NCBI GenBank assembly: GCA_025936825.1
Contig: JAICSO010000036.1
Span: 1-33,493 of the forward strand
Source of the DNA: Terriglobales bacterium
Lineage (GTDB): Bacteria; Acidobacteriota; Terriglobia; Terriglobales; Acidobacteriaceae
Direction: 5' to 3'
Length of the DNA: 33,493 nucleotides
This document shows, in pieces, positions 4,903-19,864 of this stretch. Position numbers and translations under genes: made by a program. Every line of letters begins with the position of its first letter. Within the stretch, counting starts at the first letter, position 1. The notes under the pieces were generated by a model. The model was not told where the DNA came from. It saw only the letters and a program-made list of their open reading frames with translations, and made no database searches.

Positions 4903-5120
4903 CTGTCCAATCTACAGGAACCCGAACCAATTCATCTGGTTGGCCAATTTTCTTTCATGCAATGCTCGATTTCGAACGATTCCGAAGCATCTTACAAATA
5001 GCCTTGTGACGCGGTTACGAACGTGCTCAGACTTCGGCACAAGCACTACGAATGCGATTCGAATTGCGGGTGACTGTTTCCTCAGTGTAGATTTGAAAGA
5101 CATATTCGTGGGGTAAATAG

Positions 5121-5390
5121 GTGCGGTCCACTGTTAAATGTGTAGCAGTAGTTTGCCTCCTGCTGACGCTTTGTTCGGCCTTGGCGTTTGCTGCACATCA
5201 TCATTCCAAAGGAACCGAATCAGCGACCTGTACCGTTTGCATGGCCGCCCACACGGCCGCACCACGAGCCACTGCGCACCTGCACAGAGCGGCATTAACC
5301 CCGGTATTTACAGTTGAAGCAGTTCCCGTCTCAGAAAACGAGAGTTTCATACCATTCGCTCTCAGTGTTCGCCCACCTCCCGCGCTGTAA
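5121..5390 (+). CDS. Small exported His/Cys-rich protein upstream of a TonB receptor
   Basis: An 89-residue protein with a clear Sec signal peptide (VKCVAVVCLLLTLCSALAFA, cleavage near residue 24). The mature part opens AHHHSKGTESATCTVCMAAH, so it has a His triplet, a C-x2-C pair and another His nearby, a possible metal site. The size and motif resemble DUF2946-type small exported proteins that accompany metal-related outer-membrane receptors. The GTG start follows GGGGTAAATAG. The stop is 56 bases before the TonB-receptor start, so the two are probably cotranscribed. A metal-uptake or metal-sensing role is inferred from motif plus neighbour only. Confidence 0.55.
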   Translation: MRSTVKCVAVVCLLLTLCSALAFAAHHHSKGTESATCTVCMAAHTAAPRATAHLHRAALTPVFTVEAVPVSENESFIPFALSVRPPPAL

Positions 5391-5446
5391 TTCATTCAAG
5401 AACACGACCACTCGTTCTGAATCCGTTCGAATTTTGGGAGGAATCT

Positions 5447-6388
5447 ATGTTGGCTTCTTATTTGAAGTCGCGTTTCGCGGGTTTTCTGCTGGTTGCTTTC
5501 TTTTCAATCGCGGCCTCTGGCCAATCGGGCAGCTCAGGTTCGATCACTGGTGTCGTCACCGACCCGTCCGGCGCAGTCGTGCCCAATGCTACCGTCGAGG
5601 CGCGAAATCCGGTCAGTGGCTTTTCTCGAACAACATCGACCGATGCTTCTGGAAAATTCACAATTCCGAACGTTCCATTTAATCCATACCACCTGACAAT
5701 TGCCGGTACTGGATTTGCTCCCTATGCGTCTGACGTTGACGTACGCTCAACCGTTCCCTTGGCGCTCAGTGTCACATTGAAGGTTGGTGGGTCTGCTGAG
5801 AGTGTCACGGTTGAAGCGACCGGAGGAGACTTGATCGAAAACACGTCGACATTTCATACCGATGTTGACCGCGGCCTCTTCGATAAGCTGCCGCTAGAAA
5901 GCCAATCTTCGTCACTGAGTTCACTGGTGACGTTATCCTCTCCTGGGATTGCCGCCGACTCGAATGGACTTTTTCATGGGATGGGGGATCACGCCGAGAA
6001 TTCCTTTTCTCTGGATGGGCAGCCAATCACCGATCAGCAGAGCAAAGTTTTCTCGAACCAAGTTCCTCTGGACGCCATAGCCTCGATGGAGGTTATTTCT
6101 GGCGCACCTCCGGCGGAATATGGCGAGAAAACGAGCGTGGTGATAAACGCGACGACGCGTTCAGGCCAAGGCCTCACGACGCCGACGGGAAGCGTCACGA
6201 CGAGCTACGGTAGCTTCGGCACATCAACTGTCGGACTCGATCTCGGATATGGCGGTCAGAACTGGGGGAATTTCATCTCTGCAAATGGACTGAATACGGG
6301 CCGTTTTCTTGATCCTCCCGAATTCACGGTCATTCACGCAAAGGGCAACCAAGAAAACATTTTCGACAGAGTTGATTACAAATTGTGA
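5447..6388 (+). CDS. TonB-dependent receptor (Oar-like), N-terminal part before a frameshift
   Basis: 313 residues from an ATG with a strong GGGAGGA site eight bases upstream. Residues 1-25 are a signal peptide (FAGFLLVAFFSIAASGQ). Residues about 31-115 form the carboxypeptidase-regulatory-like domain (SITGVVTDPSGAVVPNATVE, then KFTIPNVPFNPYHLTI). Residues about 130-240 are the plug domain (FSLDGQPITDQQS, then MEVISGAPPAEYGEKTSVVI). This arrangement is typical of the large Oar-type receptors of Acidobacteriota. The frame stops at TGA 6386-6388 in the middle of the barrel, while the adjoining frame continues the same protein without loss. The product alone would lack the pore and is probably non-functional. 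Confidence 0.85.
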   Translation: MLASYLKSRFAGFLLVAFFSIAASGQSGSSGSITGVVTDPSGAVVPNATVEARNPVSGFSRTTSTDASGKFTIPNVPFNPYHLTIAGTGFAPYASDVDVRSTVPLALSVTLKVGGSAESVTVEATGGDLIENTSTFHTDVDRGLFDKLPLESQSSSLSSLVTLSSPGIAADSNGLFHGMGDHAENSFSLDGQPITDQQSKVFSNQVPLDAIASMEVISGAPPAEYGEKTSVVINATTRSGQGLTTPTGSVTTSYGSFGTSTVGLDLGYGGQNWGNFISANGLNTGRFLDPPEFTVIHAKGNQENIFDRVDYKL

Positions 6389-8088
6389 ACGCGGATTCGA
6401 TCCAGCTTAACCTCGGATTCACACGCTCCTGGTTCCAAAACCCGAATAGTTTCGACAACGTTCTGCATACGGGACAGACTGACCCATCTGGAAACCCCCT
6501 CGGGCCTACCGACCAGAGATCACAAATTAGGACGTTCAATATCGCTCCTTCGTGGAATCGAGTGCTCAGCAACAATGCTGTGTTCACTGTTGGAAGTTTC
6601 ATCCGGCGCGACCAGTACAACTACTATCCAAGCCAAAACCTATTTGACGATTTGTCACCGATCCAGCAGGAAAGCGTTGCCCAGGATCGCACTTTGACAA
6701 ATGCGGGCCTACGGACAGCGCTGTCCTATGTGAAAGGCATTCACAATCTCAAGGTTGGAGGAACCTACCAGCAAACATTCCTCAACGAGAACGATCATTT
6801 GGGTATCGTCGATCCAACGCTTGTGCCTGGGCTCGGGTGTCTGGACGCCACTGGACAACCAATTCCCAATACAGTCTGCGCCACTCTGGCCCCCTATGAC
6901 CTCACAGGAGGCCGTGGTCAAGGCGGCAATTACCCTTTCGGAAGTCTCTTCACGTTTAACGGACACACCGATGTAAAGCAGCTCGCGCTCTACATCCAAG
7001 ATCAGATCACGAAAGGTGCTTGGTCCTTCAATGTTGGACTGCGGGGTGACTTCTACAACGGACTTACGACTCACAAGGAAGCGGAACCAAGGCTTGGAAT
7101 TGCATACAACATAAAGCGCAGCAACACGGTGCTACGGGTTTCGTATGCGCGGCTGCTGGAGACGCCTTTCAATGAAAATCTCATCGTGGCCAGCGTTGGT
7201 TGTGACAGTCCTGTATTGAATCCGCTCCTCGGGTGTTCAGCTTCAACTTCTACTCCGTTGAGCCCCGGATGGCGTAATGAGTTCCACGCGGGAGTAGAGC
7301 AGACGGTTGGCAAGTATCTTGTTTTTTCCGGCGAGTACGTCTGGAAATACACTCACAACGCGTATGACTTCAGCATTCTGGGTAACACGCCAATCTTTTT
7401 CCCGATAGCGTGGGACCGGTCAAAAATTCCCGGATTCGCAGGACGGGTTAGCGTGCCGAATCTGCATGGATTTTCAGCATTGATGGTCTTCTCGACTGTT
7501 TCTGCACGATTCTTCCTCCCGCAAGTCAGCGGAGCAGGTGCTACGCCATCTGCTCCCGCTGGTGTCTTTCGAATTGACCACGACGAGAAGTTCAACCAGA
7601 CCACACATCTCCAATATCAAATCGGCAAAACGGGACCCTGGGTTGGTTTCAACTGGCGGTATGACAGCGGAATGGTCGCAGGGGCGGTTCCCTTTGCCGC
7701 GGACTCCAATACACCGGTGGATCTGACTGGACTGACTGCTGATCAACAAATGCAGGCGGGGTTGTTCTGCGGCAGTGTATTTCCAACTTTGAACTCTCCG
7801 CTCACAAGCTGTGCACCGTCGCAGTACGGCTCAAGCCGCGTGACGATTCCGGCTCCAGGTACTGAGAATGATGATCACAACCCTCCGCGTATCGCTCCGA
7901 GACACGTCTTCGATATTGCGGTGGGAGACGACAATCTTTTCCGGGGAGACAAGTACAAGTGGAGTCTTCGTTTGACTGCCATCAACGTGACGAACAAGGT
8001 CGCACTTTACAACTTTCTATCGACATTCAGTGGAACGCATTTCCTGACGCCTCGAACCTACACAGCTGAGCTTGGCTTTCACTTCTGA
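6385..8088 (+). CDS. TonB-dependent receptor, C-terminal beta-barrel part after a frameshift
   Basis: 567 codons continuing the upstream receptor in another frame. The nominal GTG at 6385 is just the first codon after the shift, not a real start, and has no ribosome-binding site. The sequence is outer-membrane barrel throughout: alternating polar/aromatic strands such as QLALYIQDQ, WSFNVGLRGDFYNG and LRVSYARLLETPF, ending in the aromatic-terminated YTAELGFHF that suits barrel insertion. Removing one TG from TTGTGAAC at about 6383-6388 joins DYKL to NADSIQLNLGF in frame and gives about 880 residues, somewhat short for an Oar-type receptor. The gene is therefore a recent pseudogene or a sequencing error. 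Confidence 0.85.
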   Translation: MNADSIQLNLGFTRSWFQNPNSFDNVLHTGQTDPSGNPLGPTDQRSQIRTFNIAPSWNRVLSNNAVFTVGSFIRRDQYNYYPSQNLFDDLSPIQQESVAQDRTLTNAGLRTALSYVKGIHNLKVGGTYQQTFLNENDHLGIVDPTLVPGLGCLDATGQPIPNTVCATLAPYDLTGGRGQGGNYPFGSLFTFNGHTDVKQLALYIQDQITKGAWSFNVGLRGDFYNGLTTHKEAEPRLGIAYNIKRSNTVLRVSYARLLETPFNENLIVASVGCDSPVLNPLLGCSASTSTPLSPGWRNEFHAGVEQTVGKYLVFSGEYVWKYTHNAYDFSILGNTPIFFPIAWDRSKIPGFAGRVSVPNLHGFSALMVFSTVSARFFLPQVSGAGATPSAPAGVFRIDHDEKFNQTTHLQYQIGKTGPWVGFNWRYDSGMVAGAVPFAADSNTPVDLTGLTADQQMQAGLFCGSVFPTLNSPLTSCAPSQYGSSRVTIPAPGTENDDHNPPRIAPRHVFDIAVGDDNLFRGDKYKWSLRLTAINVTNKVALYNFLSTFSGTHFLTPRTYTAELGFHF

Positions 8089-8117
8089 GTCTCAGAAGGG
8101 CGATAATGATGGTCAAA

Positions 8118-8142
8118 ATGCCCCGACTGCTTGAGCCGGGGC
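8118..8142 (+). terminator. Probable terminator after the TonB receptor
   Basis: About 30 bases after the receptor stop, GCCCCG (8120-8125) pairs with CGGGGC (8137-8142), extended inward past one mismatch by CT/AG, with a 5-base loop. An A run precedes it and a weak T-rich tail follows. The sequence closely resembles the terminator at 3277-3305. The in-frame stop that bounds the next gene (TAG, 8144-8146) lies immediately after this stem. Confidence 0.6.
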
Positions 8143-8146
8143 TTAG

Positions 8147-8269
8147 TTCTGGACTCCCTGCCATAGCTGTGACCTGCGTAACAAGTGTTACATCTATCAC
8201 AACGCGCAAACGTTTCAGGATCCGGTCGGCGGAGGGCAGGTCATTGAGCGATTAAGTACTCTGTACACG
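8147..8269 (+). other. Coding sequence upstream of the nominal start of the truncated gene
   Basis: This stretch is open in the frame of the 8270-9307 gene and reads as protein: it contains CHSCDLRNKCYIYHN (a C-x2-C-x5-C cluster), then GGGQVIERLSTLYTL running straight into LRGKLHITLRDLRSAL. It has no ATG, GTG or TTG. The conserved look of this text indicates that the original protein extended upstream and that the gene was cut at about 8144. Confidence 0.6.
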
Positions 8270-9307
8270 TTGACAACGTTAAGGGGCAAGCTACACATCA
8301 CCCTGCGGGATCTAAGATCGGCGTTGGCGTTTATGCTCGTGGGGACTCGAAATTGCGACGAGGTGCACGAACTGTACAGTGCGGGCAAGAGGACTGAAAT
8401 CGCACGAGGATTTTACTTTAATAGCTGGATGGGTGCGGGCAATACGCAGCAGTCTGATCGGTTGCTGACACTTCTGAAGGAGATCGATATCGGCGCGGTT
8501 GGGGATCCAAGGCTGGACCGGGCGTTTGATTTTCGCGGGCCTGATCACCCAGCTTGGCTGTTAGATTTCGAACTGCGAGTTGACAAGTACGATCGGGAAA
8601 TCTTAGGGAAGCTTTTTCAAGATCTGCCAACGGATCCAACCGGTCCAGAGCTTGCCGAACGGCTGCAACGGCACCGCGAGTATGTCGCGATGATCCGGCG
8701 CTTACATTTCTTCGAGTGTAGGGATTCGTCATGGAAGAGTCTTCTACCATACGCCTCCGGCGAGAAGATGCTTCGGCTTGTTCGGGGTGAAGAGGATCTT
8801 AAGGCTGCCGGCGACGAATTGCTCCGTGCAATAAGCCGAGGTGAGGGAATATACGATCCGAACCGATTGAAAGGCAAACTCGCCCTGCAAGTCAGGCAAG
8901 TTGAAGGTGGCACGATCAGAAGCTATCGGGTATTTGACGGCGATCGATTCGCTTTGGAAGCGAATGGGGTAACAGGCGGCTCGCCCTATCTTGAACATTC
9001 CCCTACCGCACTAATTCTTCGATACAACGACAAGTCATCGCTGCAGGCGGAGTTAACGATTGGCCTCGATGTATTCGAAATGTTGGACCGACTTAATAGG
9101 GGCTATCGCCCAACGGTTGAGGAAATTCAGGGATACTACCTAAGCCTTATTGTGTTCAAAAATGTTTTGGGTTCTGCCCCATATCAGGAAGTCTTGTTAA
9201 CAACCACAGGACACGAGTTCCACAGTATTCAACGAAAAACTCAGGGAAAACTGGAGATGTGTTTGGCAGAGGCGTCAGGCGAGTATGGCACTACAAAAGA
9301 GAGATAA
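8270..9307 (+). CDS. C-terminal remnant of a large defence-type ATPase or kinase protein
   Basis: 345 residues from the first available start (TTG 8270), but the protein text runs in frame back to a stop at 8144-8146 and includes a C-x2-C-x5-C cluster before the TTG. HITLRDLRSALAFMLVGTRN followed by CDEVHELY resembles the lid region that follows a P-loop ATPase core, yet no Walker A or B is present, so the N-terminal ATPase and/or kinase part is missing. It heads an operon with the 555-aa and 1840-aa genes and overlaps the next start by 23 bases. The three-gene order resembles DptF-DptG-DptH of phosphorothioate-dependent restriction, or the MAD6-MAD7-MAD8 tail of the methylation-associated defence system. 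Neither assignment is proven. Translation start and activity are doubtful. Confidence 0.6.
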   Translation: MTTLRGKLHITLRDLRSALAFMLVGTRNCDEVHELYSAGKRTEIARGFYFNSWMGAGNTQQSDRLLTLLKEIDIGAVGDPRLDRAFDFRGPDHPAWLLDFELRVDKYDREILGKLFQDLPTDPTGPELAERLQRHREYVAMIRRLHFFECRDSSWKSLLPYASGEKMLRLVRGEEDLKAAGDELLRAISRGEGIYDPNRLKGKLALQVRQVEGGTIRSYRVFDGDRFALEANGVTGGSPYLEHSPTALILRYNDKSSLQAELTIGLDVFEMLDRLNRGYRPTVEEIQGYYLSLIVFKNVLGSAPYQEVLLTTTGHEFHSIQRKTQGKLEMCLAEASGEYGTTKER

Positions 9308-10952
9308 AGAATTTCGTTTAAACAAGATCAGCTATCTGGACTTCAAGTTTACAGAGATGGACCGCGTGCTGACCAATCTATTTTCACGGATACAGCACCA
9401 AGGATATCCCAGTCGCTTACGTCAAGCCCACGAGAATACGGTCGAATTGTTTGTTGAGCATTTTGTGTCTCAGCCGACCAAATTCAAAGGTTTTAACGAT
9501 CGCCCTGATGTCGTCAGCCGCTGGGTAGCCACACATCTGATGGATCTCGTGAATCGAGGTAAAGCGGAACCAAAAGTAGCAGCTCCTCGTCCTCTTCACG
9601 GTTACACCTATCGCTTTCGCAATCCGCACCACTGCCGCGATTACGGATCCTCACAGCAGATCTACGAGATGCTGTACCACGCGAGAGATGGGCGAGGCGA
9701 TATTGCGCTGCAGCGCCTAAAATCATTCTTTTTTGAAGGAATAGATCCAAACACTCAAGAATACGATCCCACCGTGGAAGTGGATGTAGAGACTCAGGCT
9801 TTGCTTGCTCTCACACAAAGGGACGTCGTGCAAGATACCCCAGATACGTCAAACCGGGAACAGTATCCACCACTCTGTATCGGGGCGGCTGACTTGATGG
9901 CTGACGATTTGGTTCGGCTCCTTGTCTATAAGAAGCACATTCCGCGATCCGTAATGGTGGATTATCTAAAGGTTCTCTTTTCCTTTCACTTGGCGCTCTA
10001 TCATCTGCGGCTTCTAAAACTGTTACCAGCTTTGGTCCGCAAGCACGGCGGTGAACCAGCTTGCGCCATGAATAGATGTCAACTTGATCCGAAGAAGGAG
10101 GACTACCCGCAAGCGGACTGTCCCTATCGCATTGGCTTGTTGCTGGATGTTGCGAACCGACCAGGTACCCACATGGCCCGACTAGCCGAGCAAAGTGCGG
10201 ATCTGTACTATCGGAGGATACCGTCGTTTGTTAAGGCTTATTTTGTCACGAAGAAGTTGGATGAGTTTGGACTGAATCTCCTGATGCAGGGCAAGGTGTT
10301 GGGAGGACCTGATCGACGATTGACTGTCGCTCAGGTTCTAGGCCTACTTGACGATACATATGACGCAGAACGCGACATTTTCTTCGGTATGAGATTGGCG
10401 AGTCTCATCGAGCATGCAGTTGATCAAAGTGGTGAGCTCGACCCTAAACTGAAGGAGATAGGGGAGATGGGCCTTGGCAAACTCGAAGCATATATCGAGA
10501 GTGTCGTGGCGTTTCGTGCAAAGTTTCAGCGCGATTACCTCGTGGAATGTCTCGATTCGCTACTACTCAAGAACAAGCCCGGTGCGTTGCTGGCACAGAC
10601 ACGAAAGAGGGCGGCACCTCGGCGTTTTATTTTAGATAGCCGACTGCTCGAAGTGCTTCTGCAAATCGCTGTATTGAAGATAGCGGGCGAAGGGCCACTT
10701 GGATACCAAACTGAGGAAATCAGGGTTGAAGATCTGCTGTTATTCCTTCGCGAACGGTATGGACTCTACATCGACCGGCTGCCGCCAGGCGAAGGTTTTG
10801 ACGAGGCGAGCATCGAGGATCGTGAGGCGCTGCGGAACAATAAGCAAGCCTTCAAGAGCAAGCTGCGCGAAATCGGCTTCTTTCAAGACTTGTCGGATGC
10901 ATACATCACCCAACACGTGACGCCGCGTTATCGTATCAGCTTGCAGAAATGA
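9285..10952 (+). CDS. Uncharacterised 555-aa defence-operon protein
   Basis: The ATG at 9285 lies inside the end of the preceding gene (23-base overlap), indicating coupled translation. The protein is mostly alpha-helical, without a signal peptide or membrane segment. It has a Cys cluster (C260-x4-C265-x13-C279, around CAMNRCQLD and ADCPYRIGL) that could bind zinc, and a C-terminal block of about 60 residues (LRNNKQAFKSKLREIGFFQD, ending TPRYRISL) that reads like a winged-helix end. No catalytic motif was recognised. By position between an ATPase remnant and a HerA-type ATPase it corresponds to the DptG or MAD7 slot of known systems, where it would bridge the ATPases or bind DNA; this is inference from gene order. 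Confidence 0.6.
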   Translation: MALQKRDKEFRLNKISYLDFKFTEMDRVLTNLFSRIQHQGYPSRLRQAHENTVELFVEHFVSQPTKFKGFNDRPDVVSRWVATHLMDLVNRGKAEPKVAAPRPLHGYTYRFRNPHHCRDYGSSQQIYEMLYHARDGRGDIALQRLKSFFFEGIDPNTQEYDPTVEVDVETQALLALTQRDVVQDTPDTSNREQYPPLCIGAADLMADDLVRLLVYKKHIPRSVMVDYLKVLFSFHLALYHLRLLKLLPALVRKHGGEPACAMNRCQLDPKKEDYPQADCPYRIGLLLDVANRPGTHMARLAEQSADLYYRRIPSFVKAYFVTKKLDEFGLNLLMQGKVLGGPDRRLTVAQVLGLLDDTYDAERDIFFGMRLASLIEHAVDQSGELDPKLKEIGEMGLGKLEAYIESVVAFRAKFQRDYLVECLDSLLLKNKPGALLAQTRKRAAPRRFILDSRLLEVLLQIAVLKIAGEGPLGYQTEEIRVEDLLLFLRERYGLYIDRLPPGEGFDEASIEDREALRNNKQAFKSKLREIGFFQDLSDAYITQHVTPRYRISLQK

Positions 10953-10977
10953 ACTTTGTCATTTAGATGCTAAGGAA

Positions 10978-13900
10978 TTGCAGCGGCACATGAGCCAACT
11001 CTTCGAGCGCGTTACAAAGGCGGAGGTCAACAAGGCGGTTGAGGATGTGCTGTTCAACCAATTGCGAGACCTTTTGCAGCACCGAGAGCCTGGACACTGC
11101 ATGCGTGTGTCGGATCTTGACCCAATCGTCATGCGGTCGCTGTGTGAGAGGCTGCACCAGGTAATTGAGTCGCCACATGTATTTCTGCTTTCTGCCGATA
11201 GCTCAAAGAGCGAGCCAAGCCTCATCACAGGTTCAAAACTAGTTGAATTGAGGAATCCTCTTCCCGACGGTACCTTAAGGCCGCCATTGCTGGTTTTTGT
11301 GCCAAATGAGTTGAAGTTGGCGTCAGAGGATTCCTTCGGCGTTGCTACATTCGAACAAGTTCATTGCGCACAGGCTTATGACATAGTCGCAAGACAACTG
11401 ATCGATGCTCTTCCCGATGAAATCAGGCCCGCCGTTACGGAGATCCTGGTGCTCCTCCGAGATCAGAGTTGGAAATGGGCGAATCGGCTGGCGATCATCC
11501 GATTCTTACTCTCAATTCGTAAGAATGGGAATGATGCCGAAGTCGTCGGTGCTTCGTTGTTCGAGTTCGCGCTGATCCCGGATTTCCGATTGCTGGAAGT
11601 ACCCATAACACTTGCGCTGCGTCTCCATCGGAATAGAGAGTGCATGGGAGTGCTCACGATGTCGCCGAAGTCGGAGCGCGGCCGGGTCATGGATTTGGGC
11701 CTTAAGAATATGGATTTCAAGCGGAGGCTAGGTGGCTTCCTCGCCGGGTGCGAGCTGGAGGACCCTTTATCTTGGACCAGCCAGATTGTCCTAGAGAAGG
11801 AAAATTGGCCACTTTCGTTCGACAAGTGGGAGTTTGAGAGTTCGGGCACAGCGACGCAGCAAGTCTGCGTCGAACTTGTCACGTCGGATCTTCCGGTGGT
11901 CGGAGCTGAAGATCAGGATGTTCGACTAAAGCCTCTTTTGAATCAACAGGTGCTGACTCTAGGGCAAGGGGGCTTGAAGAAGTTCAGCGTGAATTTCAAG
12001 ACCCTTCCGCATCCCGCTGAAGTTCCTGGACTGGACCACTTCAGAATCGAAGTCGTGGCCAAGAATACCGGGCCAATCGGATTAGCCAAGAAGAAAGGTG
12101 TGTGGAAGACCAAACGCCAGGACGCCACGGTGAGTATCTCCAAACTTGCCCGCATCGACTGGGAGGAGGGCTGGCACTATGTCCGCGTGACGGCGCACAC
12201 CAAAGATGGCGACCCGATTCCGCTTGTGGACACTGTCGGCAACCCTGTTTTGTGGAGCAGCGCGAGTGGCGACGAGCCAAGGCGCATCAATGAGAGCGCT
12301 GAGTTCTATGTCTTTAAAGGCGATGATTTCGATCTCGAGCCAACGCAGCGGGCCGTTCCGCGTTACCCAAGTCTGATGCACTCCCTTTTCGACAAGCAGT
12401 TCTCGGCCATCTTGGATGGGCGAGATCCGGACGAGATTTCGGTCGCGAAAGCCGCATGGCTGGACGCGGGTGTGGTTTCCGACTTGAAGGGAATTGAATT
12501 TCTGGAGGTGAAACTTGGGAGAGAGGGCACCTGTCATATTCCGGTATCCAAGGTTCTCAAGCAAGTCGAACAGAGAATTCTCTCGTCTCCGCGCGGGCCT
12601 CTCTCTTGGCGTATCACTATTTCGGCAGGTGTAGCCCAAGAGCCCTTGAGTGATTTGAGTCGCTGGCCCGGAGGAGAGGACGTCGAGCGATTTCAGGCGG
12701 CTCGAACTCGATATTTCGAGGAGCTGTCGGGGAAGGAGGCTGCCCTAGTGTCTCAGGCGGCTGACTTCCGCCGACTTATTACACCGGCGACTGAATATGC
12801 AGAAGCCTATCTGAGAATGGTCCAGCAGTTCGTTCGACGCGCTGAGGTCATGGCGGGTTCAGAACAGCAGAAAGCCATTGATGATCTGCAGACGATATTG
12901 TGTCTTGACCTCATAACGCTTGAGCATGTGAACTATCGCGGACAGCGCTCCATATCAGTTCTTGTGGGACCCACACATCCGCTACGCGCACTTTGGCTGA
13001 TCACGTGGACCGCTCTCGCGCATGAGTGGCTTGAAAAGGCCAAGACTGGACCGAAGGAGTTCGTTGCAAGCACGGCTCTAGCTCTGTCAGAACGCCTCAG
13101 CCTAGTTAACTTCCCCGCGGTGTTATCGATTGGACAAGGACACCTGCTTATTGCGATCGACAATATCCATCCGCTGTGGACCTTGTATACGACAGCAAAT
13201 GAGCCTAATCCCCGTGGCCTCGTGGCCGAGGCTTGTACAGCTCTGTCACTCAGTGAGCCGAATGTGGGGAGTTTTACTCTCGATGGCGAGTACATAGCAC
13301 AAAAGATCCGCCGATATCTTCTTCAACACCCATACATCGAGACTCTTACCATCAACGTGTTTAATGCAGGGAGGGGACGACTTCTAGTACAGGCCCTCTT
13401 AGGGCTGCAGCGCGAGTCGGTGTTTTCGGATTTGCGGTATAACATCAGACTGTTCGTTCCAGACCCAGATGCCCCGGCAGTCGGAGAAGATCTTTCGGAG
13501 TTGTTGTCTCCCGGCGGCCAAACCGTGGCTGAAGAAGCCGATGCCTTCGCAGTACCTACGGGTAATCATCTCTCCCCTAAACTCAGCTTAGCTTTTTTGC
13601 CCACGGATGACTTTCGAGCCGCACCGGAGCAGTTCACCGCACATTTGAGTATTTTGTTGGATGCTTTTCCGCCACAGGAAGTGACTGCCCGCCCTCCTGA
13701 CCAGAAGGATCGCGGAGCGCCAGTGCACGCACTAGTCCAAGACTTCCGAATCTATTATGAAGAAGATTCGGACACGATAAGCTGGACACGTGAACCACGA
13801 CACGGTCAGGCAAAACCGATTGGAGGGGCTGAGGAACTTCCGCCCCTTCTCGCGAAGCTGTCGGAAGTGCTGTCGAGCGGGGCTGCAAGTATTGCCACGG

Positions 13901-16500
13901 GAGAAGCAGGCATGAGCTTGCTGCCGGCGTCACGTCTTGTGCTTGGGGTGGAAGACAGGGCACTTCTCCATCAAGTGCACGAGGTGAGCGATTGGGTGTT
14001 CACTATCGATCGAAATGTGGGCGTCGAGTTTTTTGATCACGCTGATAATGTGCAGAGGCCTGAATACCTGATTGACCACAGTCCAGAGGCTGCCGGTAAT
14101 GCTGGTCGGCGAGTGGTTATCACGTCCAGGTCGCTGACCGAAATTGAAGCAATGATGGGGCGCATGCTGAGGGAGCACGGGCTTTCTCAGGGCTCAAAGC
14201 GTGGCACTGCTGTATTGCGACGGCTGCGCACATTATCGGGCAGGCTGGCGCTCAAACTTCTCTCGTCGTCTACTCAGCGCTCGGAAGTCCTTGGTCTCGC
14301 GCTCGCGGAAATGTATTTGGACTATCAACAAGTACTTAGGGACCAGATCGTTGTGCCTTTGGACGATCATCTGAGCTTATATCGGCAGTTTGGGGCTAGT
14401 CTTGACGATCTGGGAGATGAGGTTAGCCTTCGTCGGACGGATCTTGCCATCTTTGACATGAATGCTCTCAGGCGAACTATTACGTGCAATCTCGTCGAAG
14501 TGAAGTGCTATCAGCGCTTGGGCGGGCTTGGAGCATACGCACAATTGAAGGAGTCTATTGCTGAACAGATCGAGCAGAGCCAGAAAGTACTCCAGTATCA
14601 CTACGATCCGATAAACCCTAAGGATAGACCCGATCGAGCTCTAAAAGTGCAGGAGTTTGCTGGGCTTTTGGACTATTACACTAACCGCGCCGCCCGCCTG
14701 GGTCTACTCTCGCCCGAGGCCAAAGACGAAGCCGCGTTCCTGATAAGGTCTCTGGAAGGCGGATACATGCTCAATTTCACGCGCAGCGCGTTGATTTTTG
14801 ATTTTGAAAAAAGCGGTACTGAAAACGCGGTCCACGAGCACGGTATTGAATACCATCGAATTGGATTTGATTTGATTTCCACGTTGCTGAACTCTCTGCC
14901 CGAACGGGAACCAGAGGACAGCTCCGCCGTCGCCGTGCTCAAGTCTGTCGATCAAGAACGGACAACGCACCCGACTGTCAAAGAGGAAACGACGACTCAG
15001 ATTCCTAAGCTTGCGAAAGCTGCTTTTATTTCGGCAAAGCGTATTCGAACTGTTTCATGGGACAAGTTGGAGGATAGCTCAACGAGTTCGGAAGGTGGTG
15101 TCGTCGAGGAAACACCAGTCTGTCCGTTGGTTCCCGTCGCGGGAAATGCTGATGCGATCGAATCTCGGGTCGTGAACGAGTTATCTACCGAACAGGAAAC
15201 CGGCAGGCCGAAGGTTAACGAAGGAGACTTGTCGTCCAATCCGTCCAGCTCGCGTGGGGAGCAGGCTAAAGGTATTGAAACGACCTCGCCAAACCTGGAA
15301 TCAGTGGCTCTATATGATGTGCTGCTCGGAGCGAGTGAGACCTCGCCGCAGTACGGAATCTTGGGCGAGTATCACGGTCGCAAGATTGCTTTGGACCTTA
15401 ACCAAACTCACACAATAAGTCTTTTTGGTGTTCAGGGCGGCGGCAAAAGTTACACCCTGGGCACGATCATCGAAATGGCAACGATGGAGATACCCGGCAT
15501 TAACAAGTTGCCCGGACCATTAGCGACAATCGTCTTCCATTACAGTTCCACCCAAGACTATGAGCCGGAATTTACTAGCATGAACCGGCCTAACTTGGAT
15601 GGGAGAGCTGCAGAGCGTTTGAGGAAAGAGTTTGGCGCTCAGCCGGCAGCGATGCGGGATGTAGTTCTCCTCGTGCCGCGGGACAAGATCCGTGAAAGAA
15701 CGGAACAGTATCCTTCAATTCCAGTTTATCCGCTCGCTTTTTCATCGTCCGAGTTGCAGGCCGCTCATTGGAAGTTTCTAATGGGCGCCGTGGGAAATCA
15801 GGCGACGTACATTCGCCAAATAAATCAGTTAATGCGAAGCATGAGAAATAACCTTACGTTGGACGGGCTTCGGCAGGCCGTCCAGGACTGCAATCTAGCC
15901 GATACGCTCAAGAGCCTGGCGCTCAATCGGCTCAGCTTGGCTTCCGAATATATTGACGATAGCGCCCGATTAGGTGACTTGGTCATTCCGGGTCGTCTTG
16001 TCATTGTGGACCTTAGAGACGAATTCATTGAAAAGGACGAGGCTCTGGGGCTGTTCGTTGTTCTACTACAAATATTCGCCGATGCGCGGCACGGCGATCA
16101 CAGATTTAACAAGCTTGTGGTGTTCGACGAGGCTCACAAGTACATTGAAAACCCGGATCTGGTGGATGGATTAGTCTCGGTTGTTCGGGAAATGCGGCAC
16201 AAGGGAACGTCGGTTCTGGTTGCAAGCCAAGATCCGCCTTCGGTGCCTATTGCTCTCATTGAACTTTCGAGTCACATTATTCTTCACCGGTTCAACTCGC
16301 CTGCGTGGTTGAAACACATCCAGAAGGCGAACGCTTCTTTGACTAATTTATCTGCCGACCAGATGACGCGTCTGGCGCCGGGAGACGCTTATGTATGGTC
16401 AAGCAAAGCAACCGACATCGCATTTTCACGCGAGCCCCTTCGTGTGACCTGTCGGCCGAGAGTTACCGCACACGGCGGCTCCACGAAGACGGCAGTGTAG
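10978..16500 (+). CDS. Large HerA/FtsK-type ATPase with a PD-(D/E)XK-like nuclease signature
   Basis: About 1840 residues. The ATG at 10990 (residue 5), 13 bases after AAGGA, is more plausible than the TTG at 10978. Residues 1-1100 show no recognised motif. Around 1155-1176, TDLAIFD then LVEVKCY gives D1155...E1174-x-K1176, a PD-(D/E)XK-like active site. Residues about 1310-1440 are a low-complexity Ser/Glu/Thr linker. From about 1441 comes a HerA/FtsK-type motor: Walker A GVQGGGKS (1484-1491), Walker B LVVFDEAH (1713-1720), then MRHKGTSVLVASQDP. Such fusions in defence islands translocate along DNA and cut it. The segment HPLRALWLITW resembles text I associate with MAD8-type proteins; DptH is the other candidate. 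It is the last gene of its operon and lies 25 bases after the 555-aa gene. Confidence 0.75.
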   Translation: MQRHMSQLFERVTKAEVNKAVEDVLFNQLRDLLQHREPGHCMRVSDLDPIVMRSLCERLHQVIESPHVFLLSADSSKSEPSLITGSKLVELRNPLPDGTLRPPLLVFVPNELKLASEDSFGVATFEQVHCAQAYDIVARQLIDALPDEIRPAVTEILVLLRDQSWKWANRLAIIRFLLSIRKNGNDAEVVGASLFEFALIPDFRLLEVPITLALRLHRNRECMGVLTMSPKSERGRVMDLGLKNMDFKRRLGGFLAGCELEDPLSWTSQIVLEKENWPLSFDKWEFESSGTATQQVCVELVTSDLPVVGAEDQDVRLKPLLNQQVLTLGQGGLKKFSVNFKTLPHPAEVPGLDHFRIEVVAKNTGPIGLAKKKGVWKTKRQDATVSISKLARIDWEEGWHYVRVTAHTKDGDPIPLVDTVGNPVLWSSASGDEPRRINESAEFYVFKGDDFDLEPTQRAVPRYPSLMHSLFDKQFSAILDGRDPDEISVAKAAWLDAGVVSDLKGIEFLEVKLGREGTCHIPVSKVLKQVEQRILSSPRGPLSWRITISAGVAQEPLSDLSRWPGGEDVERFQAARTRYFEELSGKEAALVSQAADFRRLITPATEYAEAYLRMVQQFVRRAEVMAGSEQQKAIDDLQTILCLDLITLEHVNYRGQRSISVLVGPTHPLRALWLITWTALAHEWLEKAKTGPKEFVASTALALSERLSLVNFPAVLSIGQGHLLIAIDNIHPLWTLYTTANEPNPRGLVAEACTALSLSEPNVGSFTLDGEYIAQKIRRYLLQHPYIETLTINVFNAGRGRLLVQALLGLQRESVFSDLRYNIRLFVPDPDAPAVGEDLSELLSPGGQTVAEEADAFAVPTGNHLSPKLSLAFLPTDDFRAAPEQFTAHLSILLDAFPPQEVTARPPDQKDRGAPVHALVQDFRIYYEEDSDTISWTREPRHGQAKPIGGAEELPPLLAKLSEVLSSGAASIATGEAGMSLLPASRLVLGVEDRALLHQVHEVSDWVFTIDRNVGVEFFDHADNVQRPEYLIDHSPEAAGNAGRRVVITSRSLTEIEAMMGRMLREHGLSQGSKRGTAVLRRLRTLSGRLALKLLSSSTQRSEVLGLALAEMYLDYQQVLRDQIVVPLDDHLSLYRQFGASLDDLGDEVSLRRTDLAIFDMNALRRTITCNLVEVKCYQRLGGLGAYAQLKESIAEQIEQSQKVLQYHYDPINPKDRPDRALKVQEFAGLLDYYTNRAARLGLLSPEAKDEAAFLIRSLEGGYMLNFTRSALIFDFEKSGTENAVHEHGIEYHRIGFDLISTLLNSLPEREPEDSSAVAVLKSVDQERTTHPTVKEETTTQIPKLAKAAFISAKRIRTVSWDKLEDSSTSSEGGVVEETPVCPLVPVAGNADAIESRVVNELSTEQETGRPKVNEGDLSSNPSSSRGEQAKGIETTSPNLESVALYDVLLGASETSPQYGILGEYHGRKIALDLNQTHTISLFGVQGGGKSYTLGTIIEMATMEIPGINKLPGPLATIVFHYSSTQDYEPEFTSMNRPNLDGRAAERLRKEFGAQPAAMRDVVLLVPRDKIRERTEQYPSIPVYPLAFSSSELQAAHWKFLMGAVGNQATYIRQINQLMRSMRNNLTLDGLRQAVQDCNLADTLKSLALNRLSLASEYIDDSARLGDLVIPGRLVIVDLRDEFIEKDEALGLFVVLLQIFADARHGDHRFNKLVVFDEAHKYIENPDLVDGLVSVVREMRHKGTSVLVASQDPPSVPIALIELSSHIILHRFNSPAWLKHIQKANASLTNLSADQMTRLAPGDAYVWSSKATDIAFSREPLRVTCRPRVTAHGGSTKTAV

Positions 16501-16555: not shown

Positions 16556-16591
16556 TTGACATCCCCGTGCAAACTGATACGCTAATCAGCG
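16556..16591 (+). promoter_or_regulatory. xre promoter with overlapping operator
   Basis: A consensus -35 TTGACA (16556-16561) is 16 bases from an extended -10, TG-A-TACGCT (TACGCT at 16578-16583). The 17-bp sequence at 16575-16591 (core CGCTAATCAGCG, arms CGCT and AGCG) overlaps the -10 and recurs exactly before rmuC. The site lies 17 bases before ATG 16609, so bound repressor would block the promoter: likely autoregulation by the XRE protein. Confidence 0.65.
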
Positions 16592-16608
16592 GATACGAAG
16601 ATCAGAAT

Positions 16609-16920
16609 ATGACGTTCGGACAGATCATTGCGGAGGCTCGAAGGAAGTCGGGAATCAGCCAGAAGGACTTCGCGGAGAGAATCAAGAAGGAAGACGGACA
16701 GGCAATTTCGGCTCAGTACTTAAACGACATTGAGCGCGATCGCCGAAACCCCCCTTCCGAGCACATGATCGCTCAGTTTGCGAAAGAGCTGGGCCTCTCA
16801 AAGAACCACCTCATAGCCGCCGCGGGAGCCCTCCCTGCTGAATTGAAACAGATGGTAAGCGACTCAGATCCTGACGCAGTTGAAAAGGCGTTTCAGGCTT
16901 TTCGAAAACACCTCAAGTAA
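16609..16920 (+). CDS. XRE-family helix-turn-helix regulator
   Basis: 103 residues from ATG 16609. A GTG at 16546 is in frame but would put the promoter and operator inside the gene, so the ATG is chosen. Residues about 5-64 are a Cro/CI-type helix-turn-helix (FGQIIAEARRKSGISQKDFA, then AISAQYLNDIERDRRNPP), followed by a short helical tail (MVSDSDPDAVEKAFQAFRKH) that could dimerise. The identical 17-bp operator at its own promoter and at the rmuC promoter makes this protein the obvious repressor of both. Control elements of this kind are common in phage-like and defence modules, where they keep a costly effector silent until needed. Confidence 0.85.
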   Translation: MTFGQIIAEARRKSGISQKDFAERIKKEDGQAISAQYLNDIERDRRNPPSEHMIAQFAKELGLSKNHLIAAAGALPAELKQMVSDSDPDAVEKAFQAFRKHLK

Positions 16921-16968: not shown

Positions 16969-17021
16969 TTGTATTTTCACAGGCCGCGTGATACGCTAAT
17001 CAGCGTATTAGCCGATTAGCG
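16969..17021 (+). promoter_or_regulatory. rmuC promoter with double operator
   Basis: A -35 TTGTAT (16969-16974) is 17 bases from TACGCT (16992-16997), again with the extended TG. The 17-bp operator identical to that of xre lies at 16989-17005. A second, inverted copy with two changes (AGCCGATTAGCG) lies at 17010-17021, giving a CGCTAATC/GATTAGCG inverted repeat (16995-17002 and 17014-17021). Two sites here against one at xre suggest tighter control of rmuC. Confidence 0.65.
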
Positions 17022-17075
17022 GATGAGCATAGCGCGAGCACCTTGCCGACGATCTGCAGAAACGAGGCACTGAAA

Positions 17076-19314: not shown

Positions 19315-19864
19315 TGCGTTTTCTCACGGCACATTGATGCTCTTGACTGAAACCGAAGTCGCGCGACCGCTCCTTGGGGTTAACTGCCCCTCGGAACTCT
19401 ATTGGGTTTCCGAGTCCCCAGCCCCGCTTGCGGGAATGCGTTTCCCGCGTCCGGATTTCCCGTGGAAAAATGTCTCGGAGGCAGGCTTCGTTGGGGTTGT
19501 GGCCCTTGAGCCTGGCAGCTACGATCCCTCGCCTCTCCGACTTCTCTTCTCAAAGCGGCTCGAAGACCTCTGCCACGGCGGGAATCCTCGGAATGCGAAG
19601 AAAGAGGAGGCTCTTATCACTGAAGCGGTCGAAATTACGCTGAGTTCATTGCGATCAGGGCAAGGAGTCGTCGTTCACTGTGTTGGAGGCAGAGGCAGAA
19701 CGGGAACAGTCTTGGGAGTCGTGTTACGGCGGCTAGGTCACAGCTTCCCTGAGGTCCTCGGATTTCTAAACCGGATTCACAAGGCCAGAGGTAAACCGGG
19801 ATGGCCCGAATCGCCGTGGCAGGCGGCACTTGTTGAACGTGGCAATCAAACACTAAGTGCATAG
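19307..19864 (+). CDS. Cys-dependent protein phosphatase (dual-specificity/tyrosine type)
   Basis: 185 residues from TTG 19307; ATG 19337 is an equally reasonable start because neither has a clear ribosome-binding site. The active-site loop VVHCVGGRGRTGT matches HC-x5-R, with nucleophile C125 and R131. A candidate general-acid region lies in VALEPGSYDPSP. The C-terminal helix region (VLGVVLRRLGHSFPEVLGFL) is typical of the fold. It would remove phosphate from protein or another phosphorylated substrate in the cytoplasm. It closes the XRE-RmuC module and abuts the relaxase gene tail to tail. If the truncated protein at 8147 was once a kinase, this enzyme might have been its counterpart, but that link is speculative. 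Confidence 0.8.
   Translation: MFNAFSHGTLMLLTETEVARPLLGVNCPSELYWVSESPAPLAGMRFPRPDFPWKNVSEAGFVGVVALEPGSYDPSPLRLLFSKRLEDLCHGGNPRNAKKEEALITEAVEITLSSLRSGQGVVVHCVGGRGRTGTVLGVVLRRLGHSFPEVLGFLNRIHKARGKPGWPESPWQAALVERGNQTLSA

Follow-up and report, generated by a model that had tools for sequence, protein, structure and literature searches.

Does a nuclease-ATPase operon with no modification genes in sight represent a working restriction module, the arm of a system whose partners lie elsewhere in the genome, or a remnant? This question is raised by positions 8147 to 16500 of a 33,493-base stretch of DNA from a Terriglobales bacterium (the window), which is the entire contig C57 of a 6.54-Mb draft assembly in 141 contigs with a stated completeness of 99.67%. 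A sequence-only reading had described three genes here as either the orphan tail of a known defence system or a stand-alone variant, with a layout like that of DptF-DptG-DptH or of MAD6-MAD7-MAD8 from the methylation-associated defence system (MADS), reportedly described by Maestri et al. in 2024. Our results favour the orphan tail: the genes are the tail of mad6, mad7 and mad8 of MADS, and we put at about 0.8 the probability that the window holds a disarmed, perhaps recent, MADS remnant, carried on a probable conjugative element, from which the front of MAD6 and the marking genes have been lost. Some residual function of this remnant is possible. Inspection of the frames confirmed three open reading frames (ORFs) of the positions and sizes first described:

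8147-9307, + strand: 3' fragment of mad6, aligned to about residues 1000-1370 of the 1,391-residue MAD6 (tblastn and alignment; SspF match of 48.9 bits; AlphaFold2 model)
9285-10952, + strand: mad7, full length, 555 amino acids (NF047733, 638.9 bits; cut-off, 410)
10990-16500, + strand: mad8, full length, 1,836 amino acids, predicted nuclease and HerA-type translocase (NF047742, 211.5 bits; cut-off, 175)

The second and third ORFs are MAD7 and MAD8, as both exceed the cut-offs of the respective NCBIfam equivalogs; the PADLOC models of mad7 and mad8 score 456.1 and 149.5 bits for ORFs 2 and 3, and these scores are far above chance level. The profile search proposed as a check of the two larger products has therefore placed them in a defence family. 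ORF 3 ends at 16500 and encodes 1,840 amino acids from a TTG at 10978 or 1,836 from the ATG at 10990, the latter being the start that aligns with the protein of a Piscinibacter gummiphilus plasmid. The complete MADS of this plasmid, in which MAD2 to MAD6 and MAD8 score over the NCBIfam cut-offs, has a MAD7 that is 57% identical to that of the window and a MAD6 of 1,391 residues, with a Pfam NERD domain at 12-119, two protein-kinase stretches and then a Walker A motif, GNAGDGKT. Frame 1 aligns with residues ~1000-1370 of MAD6 at 52-53% identity and with none of the earlier residues; by alignment, ORF 1 corresponds to the C-terminal ~380 residues of a MAD6 of ~1,390. The window thus resembles MADS in possessing full-length MAD7 and MAD8, the C-terminal part of MAD6 and the order mad6-mad7-mad8, but differs in that MAD2, MAD5 and the first ~1,000 residues of MAD6 are gone, and with them self-marking and presumed activation.

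What remains of MAD6 is a frame of 386 codons from stop to stop, with its earliest in-frame ATG at 8333, which opens at a conserved W-x-x-C-x-x-C...C stretch and contains this CxxC...C segment, a helical part and an alpha/beta part. The NERD domain, both kinase domains (and hence the kinase expected of MADS) and the Walker A motif are missing from the fragment. The first product, described from the sequence as an ATPase/kinase-type tail, retains no motor motif, as the fragment begins after Walker A and comprises only C-terminal sequence of MAD6. No family in Pfam or NCBIfam matches frame 1, for which the library with the PADLOC models gives a match to SspF; the available MAD6 models cover residues 1-617 (NCBIfam) and 139-801 (PADLOC) and so are unable to match the tail. 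In an AlphaFold2 model of the frame (mean pLDDT, 89.0; pTM, 0.87), a long stretch of helices that reaches to about residue 241 precedes the alpha/beta part. According to PMC10853773, the core of DndF consists of a P-loop kinase bearing a large helical lid and, after it, an alpha+beta domain; some versions have a Zn-chelating insert between the first two helices of the lid, and DndF is sometimes preceded by, or fused to, NERD and tandem inactive/active kinases, an arrangement that resembles MAD6. As the model fits this plan of lid and alpha+beta domain, the break would, by analogy, fall at the lid's edge, beyond the P-loop part. The tail model had no Foldseek match at E<=0.001, and when solved structures were searched by sequence with the alignment of MAD6, kinases made up all of the best 60 among 2,814 matches.

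Are the missing partners present elsewhere? Queries for MAD1-MAD5 and the MAD6 front gave no match in the window at E<=1e-3. The window proteins scanned between 8147 and 19861 include no methyltransferase or specificity subunit, as had been noted from the sequence, the other ORFs of the window being only partly scanned. Throughout the assembly there was no match to MAD5 at E<=0.01, while the same query scores 461.4 bits in a control genome of the same class (G204). The best match to MAD2 reached 45.7 bits over residues 294-531 and lies on contig C91 near the only Methylase_S domains found in the genome, two in one frame, which is followed by a frame of 1,122 amino acids. This methyltransferase was rejected as a partner, given its weak match to MAD2 and its adjoining Methylase_S domains; the locus looks like an ordinary type I locus. 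A genome-wide query with MAD6 found, besides the tail in the window, only kinase regions, so that its front matched nothing but other kinases, and the PADLOC mad6 model likewise gave only such regions. MAD3 and MAD4 had no match at E<=1e-3 in a search that covered the window. Hence neither the MAD2 methyltransferase nor the MAD5 specificity subunit nor the MAD6 front is found in this draft assembly, and the suggestion that the partners lie elsewhere is not borne out there.

The survey of related loci indicates how unusual this layout is. An initial scan of a collection of genome contigs with a single sequence found no relative; the survey reported here covers the best 80 of 125 confirmed relatives in that collection. 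Nine of the 80 loci are cut upstream by a contig end and were left unjudged, leaving 71, and a segment was counted as present when found by tblastn, so that a reading frame may be interrupted (L151 has breaks between frames, and L147 is cut before MAD8). All four MAD6 segments were detected in 69 of the 71 judgeable loci, and every one of these 69 also has MAD2 and MAD5, in the flank for 67 and a few kilobases further upstream for 2; in all, MAD2 lies within the flank of 69/80 loci. MAD3 and MAD4 are both present in only 32 of the 69. None of the 71 has the layout of the window (MAD6 tail with MAD7 and MAD8). As no judgeable locus with a MAD6 front lacks MAD2 and MAD5, and neither gene was found in the genome, a stand-alone variant is unsupported. 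Two Actinomadura loci (L132 and L139) were considered as stand-alone MAD6-7-8 systems and rejected, as MAD2-MAD5 lie just past the flank analysed, and other genes separate MAD5 from MAD6. These inserts may be nested defence cargo; they include, in L132, GmrSD_N-type genes, AAA/DUF3696 genes and an ORF of 305 aa and, in L139, an AIPR-type gene with ORFs of 759 and 366 aa.

The remaining two judgeable loci, both of them rearranged, also lack the MAD6 front. In L118, from a cyanobacterial metagenome-assembled genome, MAD6 homology begins at ~1055 and MAD2 is complete, but MAD8 is matched only at 1-510 and 1270-1364; its MAD5 match ends at ~296. In L155, from Thiohalocapsa halophila, MAD6 starts at ~1068, but the middle of MAD7 (~238-500) is missing and MAD8 is split between two frames; MAD2 is in pieces, with a match that ends at ~456. 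With the ~1000 of the window, the remaining parts of MAD6 start within 68 of 1,391 codons in three apparently independent losses, a clustering with a P of about 0.007 for three uniform points, calculated post hoc with an n of 3.

Among relatives of the host, MAD7 is rare. It was matched at E<=0.001 in 11 of 399 sampled genomes of the class and 4 of 398 of the family, with two over the cut-off in each case: the host's own genome and G204 in the class, and the host's own genome and G542 in the family. MAD2, MAD5, MAD6, MAD7 and MAD8 are all over cut-off in G204, and G542 also has a complete MADS. The locus of the latter (L157; G542:C233:13235-17211) apparently carries a tandem pair of genes for MAD2-like methyltransferases, with 62% and 39% identity to Piscinibacter MAD2. 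The MADS-like locus L034 (G088:C271) has an unusual order, in which a MAD7-like and a MAD8-like gene enclose MAD2- and MAD5-like genes (match starts at 132, 1483, 3639 and 4905). In the plasmid MADS of Bacteroides finegoldii a gene annotated as protein phosphatase 2C directly follows MAD8 (L040:22118-22783) and is a plausible counterpart of the MAD6 kinase.

The left edge of the fragment adjoins a gene that is foreign to MADS:

5447-8088, + strand: TonB-dependent receptor gene in two frames (5447-6388 and 6385-8088), not part of MADS (comparison with paralogues)
8089-8146, + strand: junction, with a GC-rich hairpin at 8120-8142 after the receptor stop and mad6 homology from 8147 (fold and flank comparison)

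Paralogues of the receptor region (4925-8090) occur on contigs C36 (81%), C40, C99 and C124, with identities of 72-81% overall, and their similarity to the window stops at a common right edge, 8086-8090. The copy on C36 is a single frame of 885 amino acids while that of the window is split at 6385-6388, a split for which a sequencing error is not excluded.

We propose that a rearrangement broke up a MADS operon, itself probably carried by a conjugative element, and that the right-hand breakpoint fell at about codon 1000 of the 1,391 codons of mad6. All that lay upstream of this point would have been lost, namely the genes for the methyltransferase and the specificity subunit together with the portion of mad6 for the NERD, kinase and P-loop parts, leaving the mad6 tail, mad7 and mad8 in place. 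By analogy with DndFGH and SspFGH, MAD2 and MAD5 of an intact system would mark self DNA while a complex of MAD6, MAD7 and MAD8 attacks unmarked DNA, with MAD7 as the DNA-contacting subunit, MAD8 as the nuclease-translocase and MAD6 as a nucleotide-gated sensor and kinase. A single rearrangement would thus remove the marking genes together with the sensor/kinase front and so disarm the nuclease-translocase, which would explain how the cell tolerates MAD7 and MAD8 without a self mark, even though these two proteins may still fold and cooperate. For SspFGH, PMC8092258 states that loss of any of F, G or H abolishes protection, and unpaired SspFGH is harmful to cells without the mark; PMC10853773 cites the same dependence for DndFGH. 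The association of modification genes with the MAD6 front in all 69 judgeable loci that have it fits this disarming model but is no proof of it. A 2026 review lists the mechanism of MADS restriction as unknown (PMC12904381). No mad6-truncated MADS remnant appears among the titles listed by searches of the MADS literature, which left subscription papers mostly uncovered.

Several observations weigh against this account, most of them concerning the preservation of MAD7 and MAD8. The catalytic motifs of MAD8 are as follows:

14440-14568, + strand: predicted PD-(D/E)xK-type nuclease motif, D1151, E1170, K1172 and Q1193 of MAD8 (alignment)
15427-15456, + strand: Walker A of the HerA/FtsK-type ATPase, residues 1480-1489 of MAD8 (alignment)
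16111-16143, + strand: Walker B, residues 1708-1718 of MAD8 (alignment)

The Walker A, Walker B and sensor motifs are kept in the window and are invariant or nearly so across 71 aligned sequences, in which the nuclease residues are also conserved (D in 71, E in 71, K in 70 and Q in 71). A model of the nuclease segment (mean pLDDT, 82.8) has the strand-strand-helix order expected for a PD-(D/E)xK site. Foldseek found no match to this segment at E<=0.001, the weak matches listed including McrC, Cfr10I, FokI, HinP1I, Shedu and Hachiman HamA; a sequence search of solved structures returned two HerA-like chains for MAD8 (E of 1.4e-4 and 0.095) and no match for MAD7. If a position counts as near-invariant when 95% or more of the other sequences agree at it, MAD7 has changes at 0 of 82 such positions (77 sequences), the MAD6 tail at 1 of 55 (77 sequences; median, 0) and MAD8 at 9 of 293 (rank 10 of 71; median, 2), all nine being mild (for example T to S, L to V or F to Y). 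Frames were dropped from this comparison for length or incompleteness (9 of 87 for MAD7, 12 of 85 for MAD8 and 7 of 86 for the MAD6 tail), and many broken copies were thereby removed. Loci L034, L035 and L106, the last taken as a repeat of L026 because the two contigs are equally long, were left out of this test. MAD8 is somewhat over the median yet far from broken or distant members. Of all point changes in mad7 and mad8, 3.95% would create a stop, such that ~1.06% neutral divergence would produce at least one stop with a 95% chance. As neither gene carries a stop, either the loss is recent (under roughly 1% neutral divergence, judged from stops alone) or the genes are held by selection, and their intactness fits both equally. 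The MAD6 tail is also predicted from its model to be able to fold alone. Finally, the set of MADS genes needed for restriction is carried over by analogy from SspFGH and DndFGH, to which the link in sequence is weak. The suggestion that the operon is dead appears likely, although MAD7 and MAD8 display little decay.

The same preservation is what would be expected if the mad6 tail, MAD7 and MAD8 formed a minimal restriction module that needs no modification, recognising incoming or replicating DNA through the DNA-binding domains of MAD7 and MAD8 and travelling by the HerA motor. The intact catalytic motifs and the well-predicted model of the tail agree with such a module, and DndFGH has been proposed, in PMC10853773, as a counter-invader system without its own modification module. 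We regard this explanation as unlikely: its layout is absent from all 71 judgeable loci, and MAD8 is damaged in both other loci that have lost the MAD6 front. In the mad6 tail the first ATG comes only at 8333 and a ribosome site is not clearly visible by eye, and the scan for promoters and terminators did not rise above shuffled sequence, with four promoter-like sites in 7900-11100 (one on the + strand, 8078-8107) versus 2.4 (standard deviation, 1.5) in shuffles. In the analogous system, moreover, SspF, SspG and SspH are each required (PMC8092258). A more specific proposal, that a mini-MAD6 of lid and alpha+beta domain has been selected together with MAD7 and MAD8 as a modification-free nuclease-translocase guarding the conjugative element against rivals or phages, is very improbable; if true, the three MAD6 starts within 68 codons would mark the border of a separable module.

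It is also conceivable, if quite improbable, that the living strain has an intact system, either because of a misjoin of the contig at 8090-8146 or because the other mad genes lie on an unassembled replicon. The assembly is a draft and the adjoining receptor gene belongs to a repeated family, but the stated completeness is high, the searches failed to find MAD2, MAD5 or the front of MAD6, and the receptor copies are just 72-81% identical with similarity that stops before the junction, so that no identical repeat was found to account for a misjoin. Derivation from the FGH restriction arm of a phosphorothioate system (Dnd/Dpt or Ssp) is extremely unlikely. DndFGH/DptFGH, as outlined in PMC10853773, shares the general plan of a P-loop/lid protein, a DNA-binding protein of ~500 aa and a nuclease-HerA protein, and the SspF match to the tail is accompanied by a weak SspG match (25.7 bits) to the 555-aa protein. 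However, DndF and DndH score only 16.2 and 18.1 bits, far below MAD7 and MAD8, and DndG gave no match; no match to DndC (TIGR03183) was found in the assembly at E<=0.01, by a query that matched 6 of 14 controls, none over the cut-off. We therefore rejected a Dnd/Dpt identity. As for SspFGH, the MAD matches are far stronger for ORFs 2 and 3, which argues against membership, SspH has no match, and SspB-D were not matched by the seven window proteins scanned between 8147 and 19861, the stretch that this search covered.

The assignment of the remnant to a conjugative element derives from genes on the opposite strand of the contig, which encode TrwC relaxase, TrwB coupling protein, T2SSE (VirB11-type), TrbI, CagX and TraG P-loop domains; from these, the contig is probably part of such an element. 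The 141 bases with which the window opens also form, without any difference, the end of C27, a contig of 4,882 bases. Downstream of mad8 and on its strand lie a helix-turn-helix (HTH) regulator gene, an RmuC-family gene, a small ORF and a phosphatase-like gene, and the window's downstream genes were not seen beside the surveyed MADS loci at E<=1e-4, except for a weak HTH match in L157. The phosphatase ORF, of DSP/PTP type (19325-19861; Pfam PTP-SAK, 33.4 bits), is situated between the RmuC gene and the relaxase gene. A motif of 38 nucleotides occurs twice, at 16575-16612 and 16989-17026, with 76% likeness between the copies, one just 5' of the HTH gene (ATG at 16609) and the other 5' of the RmuC-family gene; the second contains the palindrome ATACGCT-N4-AGCGTAT. 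These copies are possible operators of an autoregulated HTH-rmuC unit. An Rfam search gave no match.

In summary, the window contains a partial copy of a known defence system, a finding of an ordinary kind, in which the nuclease-translocase is well preserved. In every judgeable locus in which MADS retains the front of MAD6 it also has the methyltransferase and the specificity subunit, as would be expected if an unmarked restriction arm is dangerous. A natural truncation that leaves MAD7 and MAD8 whole would provide a test case for whether the NERD, kinase and P-loop part of MAD6 is the on-switch of the nuclease.

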